From Candidatus Roizmanbacteria bacterium (GTDB taxonomy: Bacteria; Patescibacteriota; Microgenomatia; UBA1406; GWC2-37-13), in NCBI GenBank assembly GCA_016215445.1, contig JACRJL010000003.1, positions 404,924 to 468,923 on the forward strand: a stretch of DNA of 64,000 bases, in the 5' to 3' direction. The position numbers and the translations under genes were made by a program. Numbering within the stretch: the first letter of the stretch is position 1; each line of letters begins with the position of its first letter. This document shows, piece by piece, positions 7,833 to 32,983 of the stretch. The notes beneath the pieces are model-generated. The model saw only the letters and a program-made list of their open reading frames with translations, ran no database searches and was not told the DNA's origin.

Positions 7833-9199
7833 TGATATTTATGGACAAAGTTATTGCATTGGCAAAAAGAAGAGGCTTTTTTTACCCTTCGAGCGAAATC
7901 TACGGAGGATTAGCTAATACCTGGGACTATGGTCACTATGGAGTATTATTGAAAAATAATCTTCGTGATTGGTGGCTAAAGAGAATAGTCCAAGAGAGAG
8001 AAGATATTTTCTTAGTGGATAGTTCTGTAATTTTAAATCCGAAAGTCTGGCAAGCATCAGGACACGTCACTGGCTTTAACGACGCCTTAGTTGAATGCAG
8101 GAACTGTCATAATCGTACTCGGGCCGATCACTTAATTGAAGATAAGTTGGACAAGAAAGTTGAAGGGATGGCTGTCGAGGAGCTCTCGAAGATTATTAAG
8201 GATAATAAATTAAAATGTCCTAAATGCGGTTCTTTAGATTTAACTGAAGCTAGACAGTTTAATTTACTTTTTGAAACTCATGTCGGTATTGTTGAAGAAA
8301 GTAAGTCGAAGGCTTATTTGAGAGGTGAGTTGGCTCAAGGAATATTCATGAACTTTAAGCAGATGACTGACTCGATGCGTATAAAATTTCCGTTTGGGAT
8401 CGCATCTAACGGAATTTGTTTTAGAAACGAAATTACGTTGGGTCAAGGAGTCTTTCGGACTTTGCAATTTGATTTAATGGAGTTTGAATATTTTGTAAAA
8501 CCGGAAAATTGGCAAGAAGTTTATGAATCTTGGAAAGAAATAATGTGGAAAATGGCGTTGGAATTAGGTTTACCAAAAGATAAGATTCGCTGGCGAGAGC
8601 ATGAGGATTTTGAAAGATCTCATTATTCTAAAAAAACCATGGATATAGAATATCAATATCCATTTGGTTGGAAAGAAATGTGGGGATTGGCTTATAGAAC
8701 AGACTTTGATTTAAAAAATCACATGAGGAATTCAGGGAAAGATCTTAACTACAGAGATCCAAAAACAGGAGAAAAATTTATTCCCCACGTGATTGAACCG
8801 ACTTTTGGACTGTCCAGATTACTTATAACCATGATTGTTAATTCATATCACGAGGAGGAAATAAAAGGAAAAACAAGGACTGTTTTAAAAATCAATCCTT
8901 TCTTGGCTCCAATTAAAGCGGCAATTTTCCCTTTACAAAAAGACGAAAAACTTAAAAAACATGCCTTTAATATATTTAAGAAACTGAAGACAAACTTAGT
9001 TTGTGAATTTGACGATTCCGGAAATATCGGCCAGATGTATCGCCGTCAGGACGAAATCGGCACGCCTTATTGTGTTACAATAGATTATCAGACATTAGAG
9101 GACAATACAGTTACAGTTAGAGACAGAGACACCATGAAACAAGAGAGAGTGGTTGTTACTAAATTGGAGGAATATATTAATTTAAAAATTAAAAGCTAA
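7832..9199 (+). CDS. glyS: Glycyl-tRNA synthetase, dimeric alpha2 type
   Basis: 455 aa class IIa enzyme charging tRNA-Gly. The N-terminus 'ALAKRRGFFYPSSEIYGG' is characteristic of the eukaryote/archaeal-like homodimeric GlyRS. A CxxC pair at about residue 89 and 'CPKCGS' near 131 form the zinc insert. 'FRNEITLGQGVFRTLQF' is motif 2 and 'EPTFGLSRLLITM' is motif 3; an anticodon-binding domain ends the chain. ATG 7832 is coupled to the recO stop (TAATG). ATG 7841 lies 7 bp after TATAAT (7828-7833) and could be a second, promoter-proximal start. Confidence 0.95.
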   Translation: MIFMDKVIALAKRRGFFYPSSEIYGGLANTWDYGHYGVLLKNNLRDWWLKRIVQEREDIFLVDSSVILNPKVWQASGHVTGFNDALVECRNCHNRTRADHLIEDKLDKKVEGMAVEELSKIIKDNKLKCPKCGSLDLTEARQFNLLFETHVGIVEESKSKAYLRGELAQGIFMNFKQMTDSMRIKFPFGIASNGICFRNEITLGQGVFRTLQFDLMEFEYFVKPENWQEVYESWKEIMWKMALELGLPKDKIRWREHEDFERSHYSKKTMDIEYQYPFGWKEMWGLAYRTDFDLKNHMRNSGKDLNYRDPKTGEKFIPHVIEPTFGLSRLLITMIVNSYHEEEIKGKTRTVLKINPFLAPIKAAIFPLQKDEKLKKHAFNIFKKLKTNLVCEFDDSGNIGQMYRRQDEIGTPYCVTIDYQTLEDNTVTVRDRDTMKQERVVVTKLEEYINLKIKS

Positions 9200-27521: not shown

Positions 27522-28358
27522 ATGAGGTCTGAATTTAAACCATTCGTACTCAATCCTTATGTAACCAGCAGTTCAATAAAACAACAGTTACTGACAAATG
27601 TCGGGTACAGATTTGTAAATAGCGGACAACTTGTGTCTGCCGTCGGTAATGCGGAAAAGAAAAACCCATTGATCATAAATGACAATGATCGTCAGAATCC
27701 AGTAGTCTTAGAAATTGCTCGTAGAAAGGCAGAAGGCTTGGCTAATCAATCACGCTTAATTGCCACGTTTGGCGGAGTTTATGTTCCTTTGGTTGTTAAC
27801 GACACGGTTTGGAACTTTAGTTTCAACCATGGACAGGATAAAACAAGAACTATCATCAATAAACCAGAGAACGAAGAAGATGTCGAAACCTTAAAGCAAT
27901 TTTATCAAGATGCAAGGGGTGCTTTGGTGTATTCATCGGCTGGTTTATGCGTAGCAACTCCAGACACAGAAAATCCCATTCCTTATTCAATGCTCACTAA
28001 ATTAAGGATCGGGCAGTGGTTGGGGAATGTCCCGGAAGATTATCTACCTGTCCCAAGTTTTTCTTTAGGAATAGACATTATCACCGCCTTGAAACAAGGA
28101 TATATAGATCCTCACGGGGAGATGAAATTTGAGCTGATTTTTTTTGATGATACAGAAACTGCCCATATCAAAGGTTTAAAAATTCCTATAAGAAGACAGT
28201 TAAATTTTGAAATGAGGTTACCTTATTTTGGAACAGACGACAACTTATCAATTATCAAAAGTCTAAGTAGCGGAATTATTCCACCGGAGATATTTGAAAG
28301 TGAAAAACTAAAATTAGTAAAACAAAAAAAATATGTATTTACTCAATCAAGAAGCTGA
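27522..28358 (+). CDS. Maf-like nucleotide pyrophosphatase, divergent
   Basis: 278 aa. I read a Maf-like layout: 'FVLNPYVTSSSIKQQLL' for the usual LASxSPRRxxLL, 'NPVVLEIARRKAEGLANQ' for the conserved A..KA, 'LVVNDTVW' for the DTVV metal site, and 'KPENEEDVETLKQF' for the KP.....A.. segment. Maf enzymes cleave non-canonical NTPs. The SxSPRR arginines are replaced and the protein is 80 aa longer than usual, so activity is uncertain. Its stop overlaps lysS by 12 bp. Confidence 0.45.
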   Translation: MRSEFKPFVLNPYVTSSSIKQQLLTNVGYRFVNSGQLVSAVGNAEKKNPLIINDNDRQNPVVLEIARRKAEGLANQSRLIATFGGVYVPLVVNDTVWNFSFNHGQDKTRTIINKPENEEDVETLKQFYQDARGALVYSSAGLCVATPDTENPIPYSMLTKLRIGQWLGNVPEDYLPVPSFSLGIDIITALKQGYIDPHGEMKFELIFFDDTETAHIKGLKIPIRRQLNFEMRLPYFGTDDNLSIIKSLSSGIIPPEIFESEKLKLVKQKKYVFTQSRS

Positions 28359-30647
28359 AACAATACCAGCTAATTCGATTTTTCCACCACAGTATTTTTG
28401 AATGAGTTCGATGCTTTCTTTCAAAGACTGCTCCACTTGAGTTCTTGTAATGTCATAAATACCGTCAATATTTAATATTATATTTTTTGTGTTTTCTGTA
28501 ACAGCGGTTCTTTGAGCGTCGCGATAGTTAAAGTAAATATTGTATCCACCTTCCTGATCAAAGTAGGCAAGATCAGTTTGTTTATATTTAGTAGATTCTT
28601 TATCTCCTAAAAGCAAAATTTCCTCTCCTGGTTTTGGAAATCTTAAAACTGTTGGAAATTTTAGTTTGTCATAGTCGAATGCACCTATTGACACCCTATG
28701 TTTCATAACAATCAGGTTATAGGCGTCGACGCAAGTATTAATTTCGTATAATCCTTTTTTCAAAGCGATCCTTCGAAGCAACGCTTCGGGCGAAGGCCTT
28801 TTTGAGTGCCAGTCGAGACCCATTTCTTTGTAAAGTTTTCTATAGGTAATAATCTCAGGATAAGAACCGATTAATTCATTGGTTAGATTAGATTGGGATT
28901 GGACAAATTTACTGATTTCCGAAGATAAGTCAGGGCTCGATTTTTTAATGTTAATATTTTTAATGACGGCAATTCCTATATTGATCGACGGATATTTTTT
29001 AGCCATGGTAGTGTCGATAGAAAAGACTTCTGGATTATTAAGAGTCGGGAACAGGTGAGAGGTTTTTGTTTCTTTTGTTTCTCCGCTTTTATAAATTTGA
29101 TCTAGTACTTTTTTTATTCCAAGTTGCTTTATCAGGTCACCTGCTTTAGGGCCGAATGATTTTCCTGTCAGACTATTATAGAAAACAGCAAAAGCTTCTC
29201 TTGGTTGAATGTCTGTTTGTTTGATAGTTTTAAAGACAATTTGTTGCGGATCCCCTACTTGTTTTTCAAGATTAACGCTGAGTAATTTTAGGAAGTTTTT
29301 TTGTTTCTCATTAGGTCTGAAAACTTTTTGTTGTACAGAAACTTTTTCCTCGGAATATACTTCAAGATAAATTTTTCCGAATTTAATTCTTTCTTCTAAA
29401 ATTTTAATCTCTTCATCAATCAATTTACCTTTTTTTTGATTTTCAAAAAAAAGGGTCAGGTTATTTTTTTTTGTTTTAAGTAAATTAAAAACGGTTCTAA
29501 ATCGTGGAAGAAATAATCTTTTTTTCGGCAAGGGGCTGACTTCAGAAAGTTCTATAATTCTGGCAAAATCAGCAGTGACTTCTCCGGCCTTTTTTTCGGG
29601 AATATTATTTTCCAGTTTCAAAAAGTAAGATTCAAGACAGCGGTCATAATCGTCAAAAAGGTTGGGTATTGTATCGCCATAAGGATTAAAATCTAGATGA
29701 GTTGATATAGGTGTTCTTACCTGCATGAAGCGGAATACTTCCGGAGGAAGAATTTGTGAAACTTCTTTTGCCGAAGAGCCAATACCTTTTGATGAGGACA
29801 TTTTTTTACCGCCAATAGTGAACCATTCATAACCACCCATCGCATCAGGTGGTTCAGTTTTAAGAATCTCTTTACAAAAATGGACGGCCATATCATAGGA
29901 CCCACCTTTTGACATATGGTCTTTGCCGGAGGATTCGATTGTGACTCCGATCACTTTCCAGTGGGCGGGCCAATCCAGTTTCCAGGGCAGTTTTCCATTT
30001 TCCATTTTTGGTTCGACCTTACCTTCATGACTACACCCTTTTGCCCATTCAACCGCCTTTGGTTCACAACGGTAATAAACAAATTCACCATCCCACTTAT
30101 ATACATTAGTGGTTCCTATTTTCCCGCATTTTTCGCAGATTGGATTATAAGGAAACCAATTGGGAGAGCGTTCTGCCTTGGCGACTGTTTTGTAGATTTC
30201 CCTTATCTTATCAGCCTTATTTAAAAACAGTTTGACGATTTCATCCATCTTCCCTGACCTATAAAGTTCGGACGACCAGATTACTTTTGGGTAGCAGTTG
30301 AGAGAGTTAAAAACTTCAATAAATTCCTTAGCATAATATTCGGCAAAAGATTTAAACCCTGGTTCTGGTGACGGAATTTTATAAAGAGGAAAACCCATAT
30401 ATTTTTCCCATTTATCTTTGTCGAGATAAGTAGGTAGTCCGTCCATAGGATCCATATCGTTGAAAACGTAAGATGACTTTGCATTGACGCCGATTTCTTT
30501 CAAAGCTTTATAGATCAGATCGTGGACAATGACACCACGGAGGGATCCGACATGGATTCTTCCCGAGGGCGTCTTCATATCGTCGGCCCATTCCAAAGGG
30601 AGATTCCTATCTTTAAATTTTTTCGCTTGTCTGTCAACCCAAATCAT
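28347..30647 (-). CDS. lysS: Class I lysyl-tRNA synthetase fused to a C-terminal B3/4 domain
   Basis: 766 aa. Residues 1 to about 520 are an archaeal-type class I LysRS: 'TPSGRIHVGSLRG' (HIGH-like, 27-39), a 'CEKCGK' zinc element at 171 and 'KKMSSSKG' (KMSKS, 281-288). Residues ~542-766 (28350-29024) match the solo B3/4 family related to the editing region of PheRS-beta: 'ALLRRIALKKGLYEINTCVDAYN', 'VSIGAFD' and 'YRDAQRTAVTENTKNIIL'. It is the third gene of a T-box-led operon, 20 bp after the deacetylase gene. The junction is a continuous frame with no sign of frameshift. Confidence 0.9.
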   Translation of the reverse strand: MIWVDRQAKKFKDRNLPLEWADDMKTPSGRIHVGSLRGVIVHDLIYKALKEIGVNAKSSYVFNDMDPMDGLPTYLDKDKWEKYMGFPLYKIPSPEPGFKSFAEYYAKEFIEVFNSLNCYPKVIWSSELYRSGKMDEIVKLFLNKADKIREIYKTVAKAERSPNWFPYNPICEKCGKIGTTNVYKWDGEFVYYRCEPKAVEWAKGCSHEGKVEPKMENGKLPWKLDWPAHWKVIGVTIESSGKDHMSKGGSYDMAVHFCKEILKTEPPDAMGGYEWFTIGGKKMSSSKGIGSSAKEVSQILPPEVFRFMQVRTPISTHLDFNPYGDTIPNLFDDYDRCLESYFLKLENNIPEKKAGEVTADFARIIELSEVSPLPKKRLFLPRFRTVFNLLKTKKNNLTLFFENQKKGKLIDEEIKILEERIKFGKIYLEVYSEEKVSVQQKVFRPNEKQKNFLKLLSVNLEKQVGDPQQIVFKTIKQTDIQPREAFAVFYNSLTGKSFGPKAGDLIKQLGIKKVLDQIYKSGETKETKTSHLFPTLNNPEVFSIDTTMAKKYPSINIGIAVIKNINIKKSSPDLSSEISKFVQSQSNLTNELIGSYPEIITYRKLYKEMGLDWHSKRPSPEALLRRIALKKGLYEINTCVDAYNLIVMKHRVSIGAFDYDKLKFPTVLRFPKPGEEILLLGDKESTKYKQTDLAYFDQEGGYNIYFNYRDAQRTAVTENTKNIILNIDGIYDITRTQVEQSLKESIELIQKYCGGKIELAGIVSAS

Positions 30648-30667
30648 ATAAGTTTATAAAGTAAATC

Positions 30668-31663
30668 TTAACTAAAACCGTTGAGAAATGCCACTACATT
30701 GTCTCCGAGAAGCTTTGTATTATAGCCACCTTCTTGGACAATTAACGCGGGCAGTCTCAAGGAATTTATAGTTTTTGCCATTTTTTTAAAATAGTTAGTC
30801 GTCAATTTAAATCCGCCGATCGGATCGTCTTTGTGGGTATCTTGGCCAAAGGCTATAATCAAATATCTGGGTTTAAAATCTTTTATTTTTACGACGGCTT
30901 TTTCCAAGGTTTTTTGATAAAGATCATTGGCTGTTCCTTTAGGAAGAGGATAGTTAATATTTTTTCCTTCTCCTTTTCCAATTCCCTTTTCGTCGGAAAA
31001 TCCCGTAAAGAAGGGGAATTTCCAGTTAGGGTCAGCGTGGATGGAAACTGTCAGTACGTCTCCCCGATCATAAAAAATATTCTGGGTTCCATTACCATGA
31101 TGAAAATCTATATCTAAAATAGCAACTTTTCCATCTCGACTAAGATGTTCGGCAGCGATTGACGTGTTATTCAAATAACAATAACCTCCCATTTTCGCTT
31201 TTTCAGCATGATGTCCTGGAGGACGACAAAGAGCATAACCGACTTTTATCTGATTAGTTTTTATATCAGTTGCCAATTCATAAGCCAAAGAAGAAGATTC
31301 AAGAGCAATTTCGAAAATCCCCTTATACATTGGTGTGTATAGATCAAAAGAATATTTTCCTAATCGAGCTAAAGGATTTATCAATCTTTTGTTTTTGTTT
31401 AAATCATTATAAGGAAAAACTGATGGGTATGAATAAACTGACCAATTTTTTATAAAATCGATGTAATTTTTGTCGTGAACTACTTCGATTAATCGAAGTG
31501 GAACACGTTTCGTTAATTTACTGATTTTAAACCCGTTGACTATCAAACTTTTTTTTATATTTTCTACGCGTGACGGGATTTCGGAATGCGGATCTTTCTC
31601 GCCGTTAAAAATTTCATAACCGGGGACATGGGAAAGGTGTCTCTGAGAATAAAGAATTTTCAT
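30668..31663 (-). CDS. Histone-deacetylase-superfamily amidohydrolase
   Basis: 331 aa zinc hydrolase of the HDAC/AcuC/acetylpolyamine amidohydrolase family, which removes acetyl groups from lysines or amines. Catalytic elements are present: 'CRPPGHHAEKAKMGGYCYLN' (His-His pair), 'DIDFHHGNGT' (zinc Asp and His), 'FGQDTHKDDPIGG' (second zinc Asp) and 'EGGY'. It overlaps the acetyltransferase gene by ATGA, so the two are translated together. Bacterial substrates range from acetyl-CoA synthetase to acetylated polyamines; none can be assigned here. Confidence 0.9.
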   Translation of the reverse strand: MKILYSQRHLSHVPGYEIFNGEKDPHSEIPSRVENIKKSLIVNGFKISKLTKRVPLRLIEVVHDKNYIDFIKNWSVYSYPSVFPYNDLNKNKRLINPLARLGKYSFDLYTPMYKGIFEIALESSSLAYELATDIKTNQIKVGYALCRPPGHHAEKAKMGGYCYLNNTSIAAEHLSRDGKVAILDIDFHHGNGTQNIFYDRGDVLTVSIHADPNWKFPFFTGFSDEKGIGKGEGKNINYPLPKGTANDLYQKTLEKAVVKIKDFKPRYLIIAFGQDTHKDDPIGGFKLTTNYFKKMAKTINSLRLPALIVQEGGYNTKLLGDNVVAFLNGFS

Positions 31664-32694
31664 GATTTTTTATTGTATAAATTTATAATTTGTTTTATTA
31701 CCTCTGGTGAATACAAGTTGACTATATTTTCTCGCGGTAAGACGGCTACGGCAAAATCTCTCAAAAATCTAAAAGGTATTCCTCTATCTTCTAAGGATTG
31801 TTTCTCAAATACAGAGTTGCCTGATGCGCCGTCAACAACAGCCACATTATAAGAAAGAATTTGAGAAACCCCCTCTGTTTTTGGAATGATGAAGCCTGTA
31901 GAAGCTCCTATTGCTGTCGAGGTAGAAGAGGTGTTAAACTCCGCGGCAATTACTGTTGTTGAAGCGTCCTGGGAATAGTAAGTGTCGCTTAATACTTGGG
32001 CGACTAAACCGGCGACAGTTGCCGTACATAGTCCGCGACCCTCATAACCGTCAGTCGTACTATATTCCGTGGTTTCAATATATTTAATTCCGGAAAACTC
32101 CATTGCTTCGGCAGTACTGGCGGCAACAATTTTACCTGTATTAGTATCCCTTATGGCGCTAAACCAGAGATCTTCTTGTTTGGATCCAATCGATTCGATA
32201 AAATTTGTAATCTGATCTCTAGTCCAGCCAAAGCGTTCCCATAAGGCAAATAGATCTTCTTGATCGTTTGCTTGCAGTTGGTTGGTTAAATTAAATCCAT
32301 CGGGAATGGCTTTTATTTTTTCCAAAGGCGTTTTATGATTGTTTCTGTTTTCAATTAAGTTTTGAATATTTACGCCTTGAGGAGGGGAATCATGGTAATT
32401 TTCACCCAAGAAAACAATTGCCGAGTTGTCATCTGTCACCAAGTCCATAGGTATAACTGCTTCTATTGGCAAACCTGTTTGTTTCGCTTGAGTCAAAACA
32501 TCATTCGAGCATAAGCTTCTCAAGACAACTCTTCTGTAACCATTAGATGAATCTTTCAATTTCTTGAATCTAGAACTTAGTTCTGAAATTGTGTTAACCG
32601 GACTATCTAAAGTCTGGTATAGTCTGGAAAACGTTCTTGGTTCCGCTTCACCTGGTTTTCCGACACTTGTATTGATATTTTCAGTTCCGGCCAT
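31660..32694 (-). CDS. GNAT-like acetyltransferase, first gene of a T-box operon
   Basis: 344 aa. The acetyl-CoA site is suggested by 'YEGRGLCTATVAGLVAQVL' (R/Q-x-x-G-x-G/A). The run 'STAEAMEFSGIKYIETTEY' before it and the C-terminal strand pattern recall AblB-type beta-lysine acetyltransferases, but this is from memory and not firm. The ATG lies directly after the terminator T-tract of the leader; GAGGA within the terminator stem is the likely ribosome-binding site. It overlaps the deacetylase gene by ATGA. Confidence 0.6.
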   Translation of the reverse strand: MAGTENINTSVGKPGEAEPRTFSRLYQTLDSPVNTISELSSRFKKLKDSSNGYRRVVLRSLCSNDVLTQAKQTGLPIEAVIPMDLVTDDNSAIVFLGENYHDSPPQGVNIQNLIENRNNHKTPLEKIKAIPDGFNLTNQLQANDQEDLFALWERFGWTRDQITNFIESIGSKQEDLWFSAIRDTNTGKIVAASTAEAMEFSGIKYIETTEYSTTDGYEGRGLCTATVAGLVAQVLSDTYYSQDASTTVIAAEFNTSSTSTAIGASTGFIIPKTEGVSQILSYNVAVVDGASGNSVFEKQSLEDRGIPFRFLRDFAVAVLPRENIVNLYSPEVIKQIINLYNKKS

Positions 32695-32743
32695 AAAAAA
32701 ACGTCCTCGAAAAATTAGTAACGATACTAATCTTTCAAGGACG
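32695..32743 (-). terminator. T-box terminator hairpin
   Basis: Long stem CGTCCTTGAAAGATTAGTA against TACTAATTTTTCGAGGACG with a tiny loop, then seven Ts ending at the operon ATG. It includes the GAGGA that probably serves as ribosome-binding site, so folding could block both transcription and translation. Confidence 0.85.
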
Positions 32744-32949
32744 CATTTATGCGCGGTACCACCTTGATTTATTTCAGCTTATATTCTGTTTCGTCAACAG
32801 ATTTCGACCGAAAACACTTGGCAGAATGTTCTGCTTAAAGCTGTAACAGGCTTTTCCCGTCGGGGTCTAATTTCCAATTTGGATTTCTTCCCGAGACTGC
32901 GAAGGTCTTGCCCGCCGAATCGGTGGGGTCCTTCGTGAACGTCTTTAGA
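32695..32949 (-). promoter_or_regulatory. T-box riboswitch leader (transcription attenuation)
   Basis: On the minus strand the leader contains the T-box core TGGTACCGCG (32752-32761) inside an antiterminator (32737-32765: AAGG...CCTT outer and GCGC/GCGT inner pairing). This competes with a long terminator (32702-32743 plus seven Ts at 32695-32701). Upstream are several hairpins: a Stem I-like element closed by AGAC/GTCT, with an internal loop holding AAG (32907-32909, a lysine triplet) as candidate specifier, then small hairpins. Stem I is much shorter than usual. Uncharged tRNA would favour expression of the acetyltransferase-deacetylase-LysRS operon. Confidence 0.88.
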
Positions 32950-32955
32950 AATTTA

Positions 32956-32983
32956 ATTATAAAGCAAAATTATTTAATATCAA
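32956..32983 (-). promoter_or_regulatory. Promoter of the T-box operon inside the 3' end of greA
   Basis: Minus strand TTGATA (32978-32983), 16-bp spacer, TATAAT (32956-32961). The -35 box lies within the last greA codons. The predicted start is near 32949, giving a leader of about 255 nt. Confidence 0.65.

Follow-up and report, generated by a model that had tools for sequence, protein, structure and literature searches.

A survey of 2010, covering 891 genomes, found lysyl-tRNA synthetase (LysRS) under the control of a T-box in four species, always along with a second, uncontrolled LysRS (PMC2916919). In Bacillus cereus lysK a canonical, tRNA-sensing T-box, based on a transcriptional terminator and antiterminator, precedes a class I LysRS, the second, uncontrolled enzyme being of class II (PMC2916919). 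A related arrangement is described here for Candidatus Roizmanbacteria bacterium, in a window of 64,000 nucleotides (contig JACRJL010000003.1, positions 404,924 to 468,923), where a T-box leader is followed by genes for a GNAT-fold N-acetyltransferase-like protein, an HDAC-fold deacetylase and a class I LysRS, all on the minus strand. It differs from B. cereus lysK in having a short stem I and two acetyl-handling genes ahead of LysRS; a second LysRS is not detected in the genome. The favoured reading, held with moderate confidence as about an even call, is that of a lysine-starvation operon, where the GNAT/HDAC pair, under tRNA-Lys control, would acetylate and deacetylate free lysine (or an amine resembling it) and so supply LysRS.

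Other described systems resemble parts of this operon. Bacillus acuA-acuC/acsA also features a GNAT and an HDAC-fold deacetylase beside an AMP-forming enzyme; here, in contrast, the operon is tRNA-controlled, the GNAT belongs to a different family, of about 344 aa, and in relatives the HDAC often gives way to an M20 enzyme. In the AblA/AblB system (Nepsilon-acetyl-beta-lysine) a GNAT acetylates a lysine derivative, and a cassette including a lysine 2,3-aminomutase is found in one relative (G006); here no aminomutase is matched by tblastn, the GNAT has no NCBIfam match, and the operon further contains a deacetylase and LysRS. PsApaH and MrApaH (cluster 4) share with the deacetylase the HDAC fold and the motifs RPPGHH and EGGY, and are the closest to it by sequence; in this comparison, made by sequence alone, PIG replaces PIS, and the genomic context is that of charging with lysine rather than of using polyamines. 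LysW-mediated aminoadipate operons are located, in relatives, at this same place between greA and LysRS, and have in common with the cassette either the T-box or the operator of an ACT-domain gene; the present genome has no strong match to their genes. A literature search, conducted mostly outside subscription papers, returned neither a described operon with GNAT, deacetylase and LysRS, nor T-boxes in Patescibacteria or the Candidate Phyla Radiation.

The T-box leader and its specifier

The covariance search suggested in a first-pass annotation of this DNA gives an end-to-end match of RF00230 to the leader (32734–32948), with a score of 43.7 bits (E 1.3e-8 in a 351-base search, 8.5e-9 in the whole genome); it is the sole RF00230 match in the 940-kb genome. 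The score is below the Rfam gathering score of 93, and is probably lowered by the short stem I. Among relatives, matches at E <= 0.001 are found in 46 of 96, and only two reach the gathering cut-off. The 275-nt leader folds 4.1 standard deviations below shuffled sequences.

The stem I helix, GAAGG/CCUUC (32901–32934), surrounds AC, then a small hairpin and, after it, the specifier loop CAAGA, which contains the triplet AAG (32907–32909). In an alignment of 14 homologous leaders CAAG is invariant, followed by A or G, while pairs of the surrounding helix change on both sides, in a compensatory way; scripted pairing of this helix is poor for two of the 14 (G003 and G032). The same helix also encloses ACC (ACT or ATT in two of the leaders, as aligned) and a hairpin whose size varies. 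In short leaders of related genomes the same register, with the triplet just ahead of a purine and the 3' strand, yields GAC before AspRS and AUC before IleRS, where the gene names were read by eye from the protein sequence: this shared register indicates AAG, for lysine, as the specifier here. A tRNA-Lys(CUU) is present in the genome, and its discriminator A fits the UGGU of the T-box core TGGTACCGCG (32752–32761, sequence UGGUACCGCG), which pairs with the ACCA of the tRNA. That the leader senses tRNA-Lys, as first proposed, is well supported by these sequence features; a specifier for another amino acid, named at the time as the contrary outcome, is not what the alignment reveals.

The antiterminator (32737–32765), located by sequence reading and by the RF00230 alignment, contains the UGGN and overlaps, by a common arm, the intrinsic terminator (32701–32744): its 3' arm falls within the latter, a hairpin of 20 pairs followed by U7. 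A GAGG Shine-Dalgarno sequence (32705–32708) lies in the 3' arm of the terminator, and the U run abuts the ATG of the GNAT-like reading frame. The same layout is found in the eleven leaders listed, with AGGA/GAGG-like Shine-Dalgarno sequences in the 3' arm; the exception is G011, with CGGGCGG at this position. Because the Shine-Dalgarno sequence sits within this arm, the terminator hairpin may mask translation as well. Directly upstream of the leader, a promoter-like site, TTGATA-16-TATAAT (32956–32983), matches 11 of 12 consensus positions and is identified by consensus only; a TATAAT-like box, judged by eye, is also present upstream of many homologous leaders. The T-box core, antiterminator, terminator and three genes listed in the first-pass annotation are all found in place, as are the ATGA overlap and the 20-bp gap that it described between the genes; the promoter-like site, the Shine-Dalgarno sequence in the terminator, the start codon abutting the U run, and the B3/4 domain discussed below are additions.

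T-boxes are common in this Patescibacteria class. Further ones, with short stem I, are found in relatives, at loci L012, L014, L023, L030, L015 and L019, with apparent UAC, GAC (AspRS) and AUC (IleRS) specifiers.

The encoded proteins

The GNAT-like protein (31660–32694, 344 aa) is not significantly matched by any Pfam or NCBIfam model, and was assigned by its predicted structure (AF2, pLDDT 74.9): residues 132–325 of the model adopt a GNAT fold, with Z 14.7 and rmsd 2.6 over 151 residues to 2ge3. At the position of the acetyl-CoA loop (R/Q-x-x-G-x-G/A), M20-linked members of the family have YRGKGLY, the present protein has YEGRGLC and one relative has HEGKSLC. The N-terminal third, folded alone, gives weak, mostly GNAT-like matches, none with E < 0.001, and so no more than hints at a tandem GNAT. 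Use of Lys-tRNA in the manner of MprF/FemX is not supported, L-PGS appearing only low in the Foldseek list, with TM about 0.3.

The second reading frame, which shares the ATGA overlap with the first, encodes the HDAC-fold deacetylase (30668–31663, 331 aa), of acetylpolyamine amidohydrolase type. It matches PF00850 with E 5.9e-70, its best structure match being 9gkz (PsApaH, E 4.9e-71), and by sequence it is nearest to the cluster 4 acetylpolyamine amidohydrolases. The RPPGHH, DIDFHH, EGGY and Zn-ligand motifs are kept in the alignment; RPPGHH and EGGY are motifs of robust deacetylases (PMC11532494).

After the 20-bp gap follows the class I LysRS (28347–30647, 766 aa), which scores 327.5 bits to TIGR00467, with an equivalog cut-off of 147.55. 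To its C-terminus, at residues 602–754 (28386–28844), is fused a B3/4 domain, of the PheRS-beta editing type (PF03483, 87.1 bits, E 1.4e-24). The same fusion to class I LysRS is observed in many relatives (L119:1212-3458; L120:2795-5113), and a fusion to class II LysRS in G027 and G056, while the domain is absent from LysRS in several genomes bearing the pair (G018, G047, G010). No class II LysRS was found in the genome by tblastn; the other matches, of 24–40% identity, were read as AspRS/AsnRS-like synthetases. The 3' end of the LysRS gene is overlapped, on the opposite strand, by a gene for a weakly Maf-like protein (27522–28358; PF02545 below cut-off), with homologues downstream of LysRS in three relatives.

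Linkage and control in related genomes

In relatives, the slot between greA and LysRS may contain GNAT and HDAC, GNAT and M20, the LysX-Y-Z-J set of the aminoadipate route (with homocitrate synthase and homoaconitase in some relatives) or an aminomutase cassette, composed in G006 of lysine 2,3-aminomutase, a double GNAT and M20; it may also be empty. GNAT is found within about 5 kb of LysRS, of either class, in 19 of the 24 resolvable loci of the class: the exceptions are G055, where it adjoins LysW-X-Y-Z-J with no LysRS, G320, G234, G060 and G033. In G045, G151, G306, G271 and G101 the GNAT-deacylase pair lies beside a class II LysRS. The naive chance of such a linkage is negligible, though the loci are related by descent. 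The gene-order comparison proposed in the first-pass annotation thus finds acetyltransferase and deacetylase adjoining LysRS in relatives, and not the complete lack of linkage that was held to speak against the idea.

The deacylase partner is either HDAC or M20, the latter in about half of the loci and scoring to the ArgE/DapE family. HDAC-linked and M20-linked GNATs are homologous (hhalign 98%, E 3.6e-14), and are split in the GNAT tree, with support of 78/70 for the HDAC side and 100/99 for its core clade; none of 500 shuffles was as clustered by partner. As the tree splits by deacylase partner, the two members of each pair probably handle the same acetylated amine. A wide distribution of the cassette is not borne out: in the wider phylum the combined profile matched 3 of 380 genomes, one of them weakly, and a scan of the genome collection gave only three named loci, all already seen.

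Some individual loci deserve mention. In G018 the GNAT gene is interrupted by stops (L082:5952-6623) and a T-box is missing from the leader, but the reading frames of HDAC and LysRS are still open. In G055 a small zinc protein that resembles LysW but lacks the EDWGE tail (L193:7876-8043) is convergent to GNAT-M20, a normal LysW being present at 8191–8391. In G151 an Orn/Lys/Arg decarboxylase (L197:8637-10100) lies upstream of LysRS-GNAT-M20. The LysX-Y-Z-J operons of relatives end, where LysK would be expected, with a class II glutamine-amidotransferase-like gene (EgtC-like, Ntn), a candidate LysW-lysine hydrolase (L093:7028-7684, L087:8880-9503, L108:7816-8472, L100:6321-6968, L226:120-776).

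A T-box is present in 14 loci and a divergent gene for an ACT-domain protein of about 217 aa in 11, with none featuring both and 5 neither (p 9e-5, in a post hoc test on related genomes). The ACT-domain gene is listed in L081, L091, L093, L095, L119, L195, L197, L202, L203 and L226; its ACT matches are below the Pfam cut-offs. Most of its promoters contain TGTTAA-like palindromes (TGTTAA-N4-TTAACA-like), several with TTGTCAA...TTGACA. The same palindromes are found upstream of the LysW-X operon in G007, and in G002 the gene and a complete aminoadipate operon are arranged divergently. The ACT-domain protein, a likely lysine regulator taking the place of the T-box, would bind DNA. These sites, shared with lysine biosynthesis operons, independently place the GNAT-deacylase pair in a lysine regulon.

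Lysine supply and the role of the pair

The organism is probably a lysine auxotroph, since markers of lysine synthesis are missing from an assembly that is 97% complete. In this genome no DHDPS was found, no LysX above cut-off and no LysW candidate; LysY, LysZ, homocitrate synthase and lysine 2,3-aminomutase of relatives have no tblastn match, and LysJ only a 54-residue scrap. A LysA-like decarboxylase, elsewhere in the genome, scores far below cut-off. On contig C3, at about 586–588 kb (L221:582-2631), a DUF2156-like gene, recognized by eye, is followed by a LysA/ODC-like decarboxylase. A role of the cassette as a replacement for lysine synthesis was considered and set aside, as it is not mutually exclusive with LysX among 72 family genomes.

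According to the favoured reading, uncharged tRNA-Lys(CUU) would pair with the AAG specifier and with the UGGU of the T-box, stabilizing the antiterminator; the terminator would be prevented, and the Shine-Dalgarno sequence in its 3' arm freed. Readthrough would then raise GNAT, HDAC and the sole detected LysRS together. The two enzymes would form a matched acetylating/deacetylating pair on one amine, for which free lysine or a closely related compound is the most likely candidate. GNAT would convert it to an acetyl form that is neutral, the simplest purpose being to retain scavenged lysine in an auxotrophic cell, and the deacetylase would yield lysine for the co-transcribed LysRS. What we infer is the use of acetyl-CoA, the substrate, the direction, the site that is acetylated and the trap/release role. 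In favour of this reading, the cassette takes, between greA and LysRS, the place of LysX-Y-Z-J in relatives; acetylated lysines are neutral solutes in other microbes (PMC4685198). The first-pass annotation had the pair acting on lysine, beta-lysine or a lysine-like amine: all the findings are compatible with this proposal, and lysine-gene neighbours and the shared regulon strengthen it, while beta-lysine is unlikely in this genome, where no aminomutase is matched by tblastn.

A number of points weigh on the other side. The weak point is that a lysine-starved cell has no obvious gain from acetylating lysine, and that acetylation and deacetylation could cancel out in a futile cycle. The substrates for which HDACs of this type are best known are acetylpolyamines (PMC11532494). 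The acetyl-CoA loop motif is partly degenerate in HDAC-linked GNATs (EGRGL, ENLGL, EGKSL, RGHGA). The linked loci share ancestry, so that counts are not independent, and cassette and LysX occur together in 3 of the family genomes, where about 4 are expected.

Alternatively, GNAT might acetylate the LysRS protein itself, and HDAC remove the group, as AcuA and AcuC do on acetyl-CoA synthetase in Bacillus: the same gene types adjoin their target enzyme, and PsApaH, which of the solved structures is nearest to the HDAC, is able to remove the acetyl group from acetylated AcsA (PMC11532494). This is unlikely, and less likely than the making and unmaking of acetyl-lysine, because the pairing is kept beside unrelated class I and class II LysRS, and because HDAC is swapped, in about half of the loci, for an ArgE/DapE-type M20, of a family acting on small N-acyl amino acids; in G055, moreover, the cassette lies beside LysW-X-Y-Z-J with no LysRS. 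Equally improbable is an acetyl-protected synthesis, where a precursor would be acetylated by GNAT and converted by further enzymes before the deacetylase sets lysine free, as in the arginine and diaminopimelate routes. Such pathways are bracketed by an acetyltransferase and a deacetylase, the M20 partners score to ArgE/DapE, and the cassette sits in the slot of the aminoadipate route; yet, apart from the LysJ scrap, the genome has no LysX/Y/Z/J-like set by tblastn, and no LysW candidate, homocitrate synthase or DHDPS, and pair and above-cut-off LysX coexist in three genomes.

It is more doubtful still that the operon protects from lysine look-alikes or from a LysRS inhibitor, with GNAT acetylating the toxic analogue and B3/4 clearing mischarged residues. 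A drop in charged tRNA-Lys would indeed turn the operon on, B3/4 is an editing-type domain, and the nearest folds of the GNAT model include acetyltransferases that detoxify small molecules, such as the phosphinothricin and tabtoxin resistance proteins; those lists are dominated by generic GNATs, however, a matched deacetylase would reverse the detoxification, and the pair-bearing G018, G047 and G010 do without B3/4. Turnover of acetylated cadaverine, or of other lysine-derived polyamines, is just as doubtful: the closest solved HDAC relatives are acetylpolyamine amidohydrolases, in G151 the Orn/Lys/Arg decarboxylase belongs to one gene run with LysRS, GNAT and M20, and a LysA-like decarboxylase exists in the present genome, but the latter is unlinked to the operon, lysine starvation would be a poor moment for making cadaverine, and M20 enzymes are not known to act as polyamine deacetylases.

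A broader extension of the acetyl-lysine reading is put forward tentatively, as more open to doubt than the starvation operon: a lysine-homeostasis module not described before, where acetyl-lysine would be made and unmade by a dedicated GNAT-deacylase pair. Its expression would depend on how far tRNA-Lys is charged or, for some relatives, on the ACT-domain regulator, two unrelated deacylase families having been recruited to matched GNAT clades. For this organism, a T-box controls the only LysRS detected, and lysine leaders of a similar kind are found repeatedly in its class. The GNAT-deacylase pair, tied to both LysRS classes, is a testable candidate for lysine management in bacteria with no recognizable lysine synthesis, and offers a lead on small-molecule roles of bacterial HDAC-like enzymes; its recurrence near lysine genes, in about twenty related genomes, points to an undescribed step in lysine handling.

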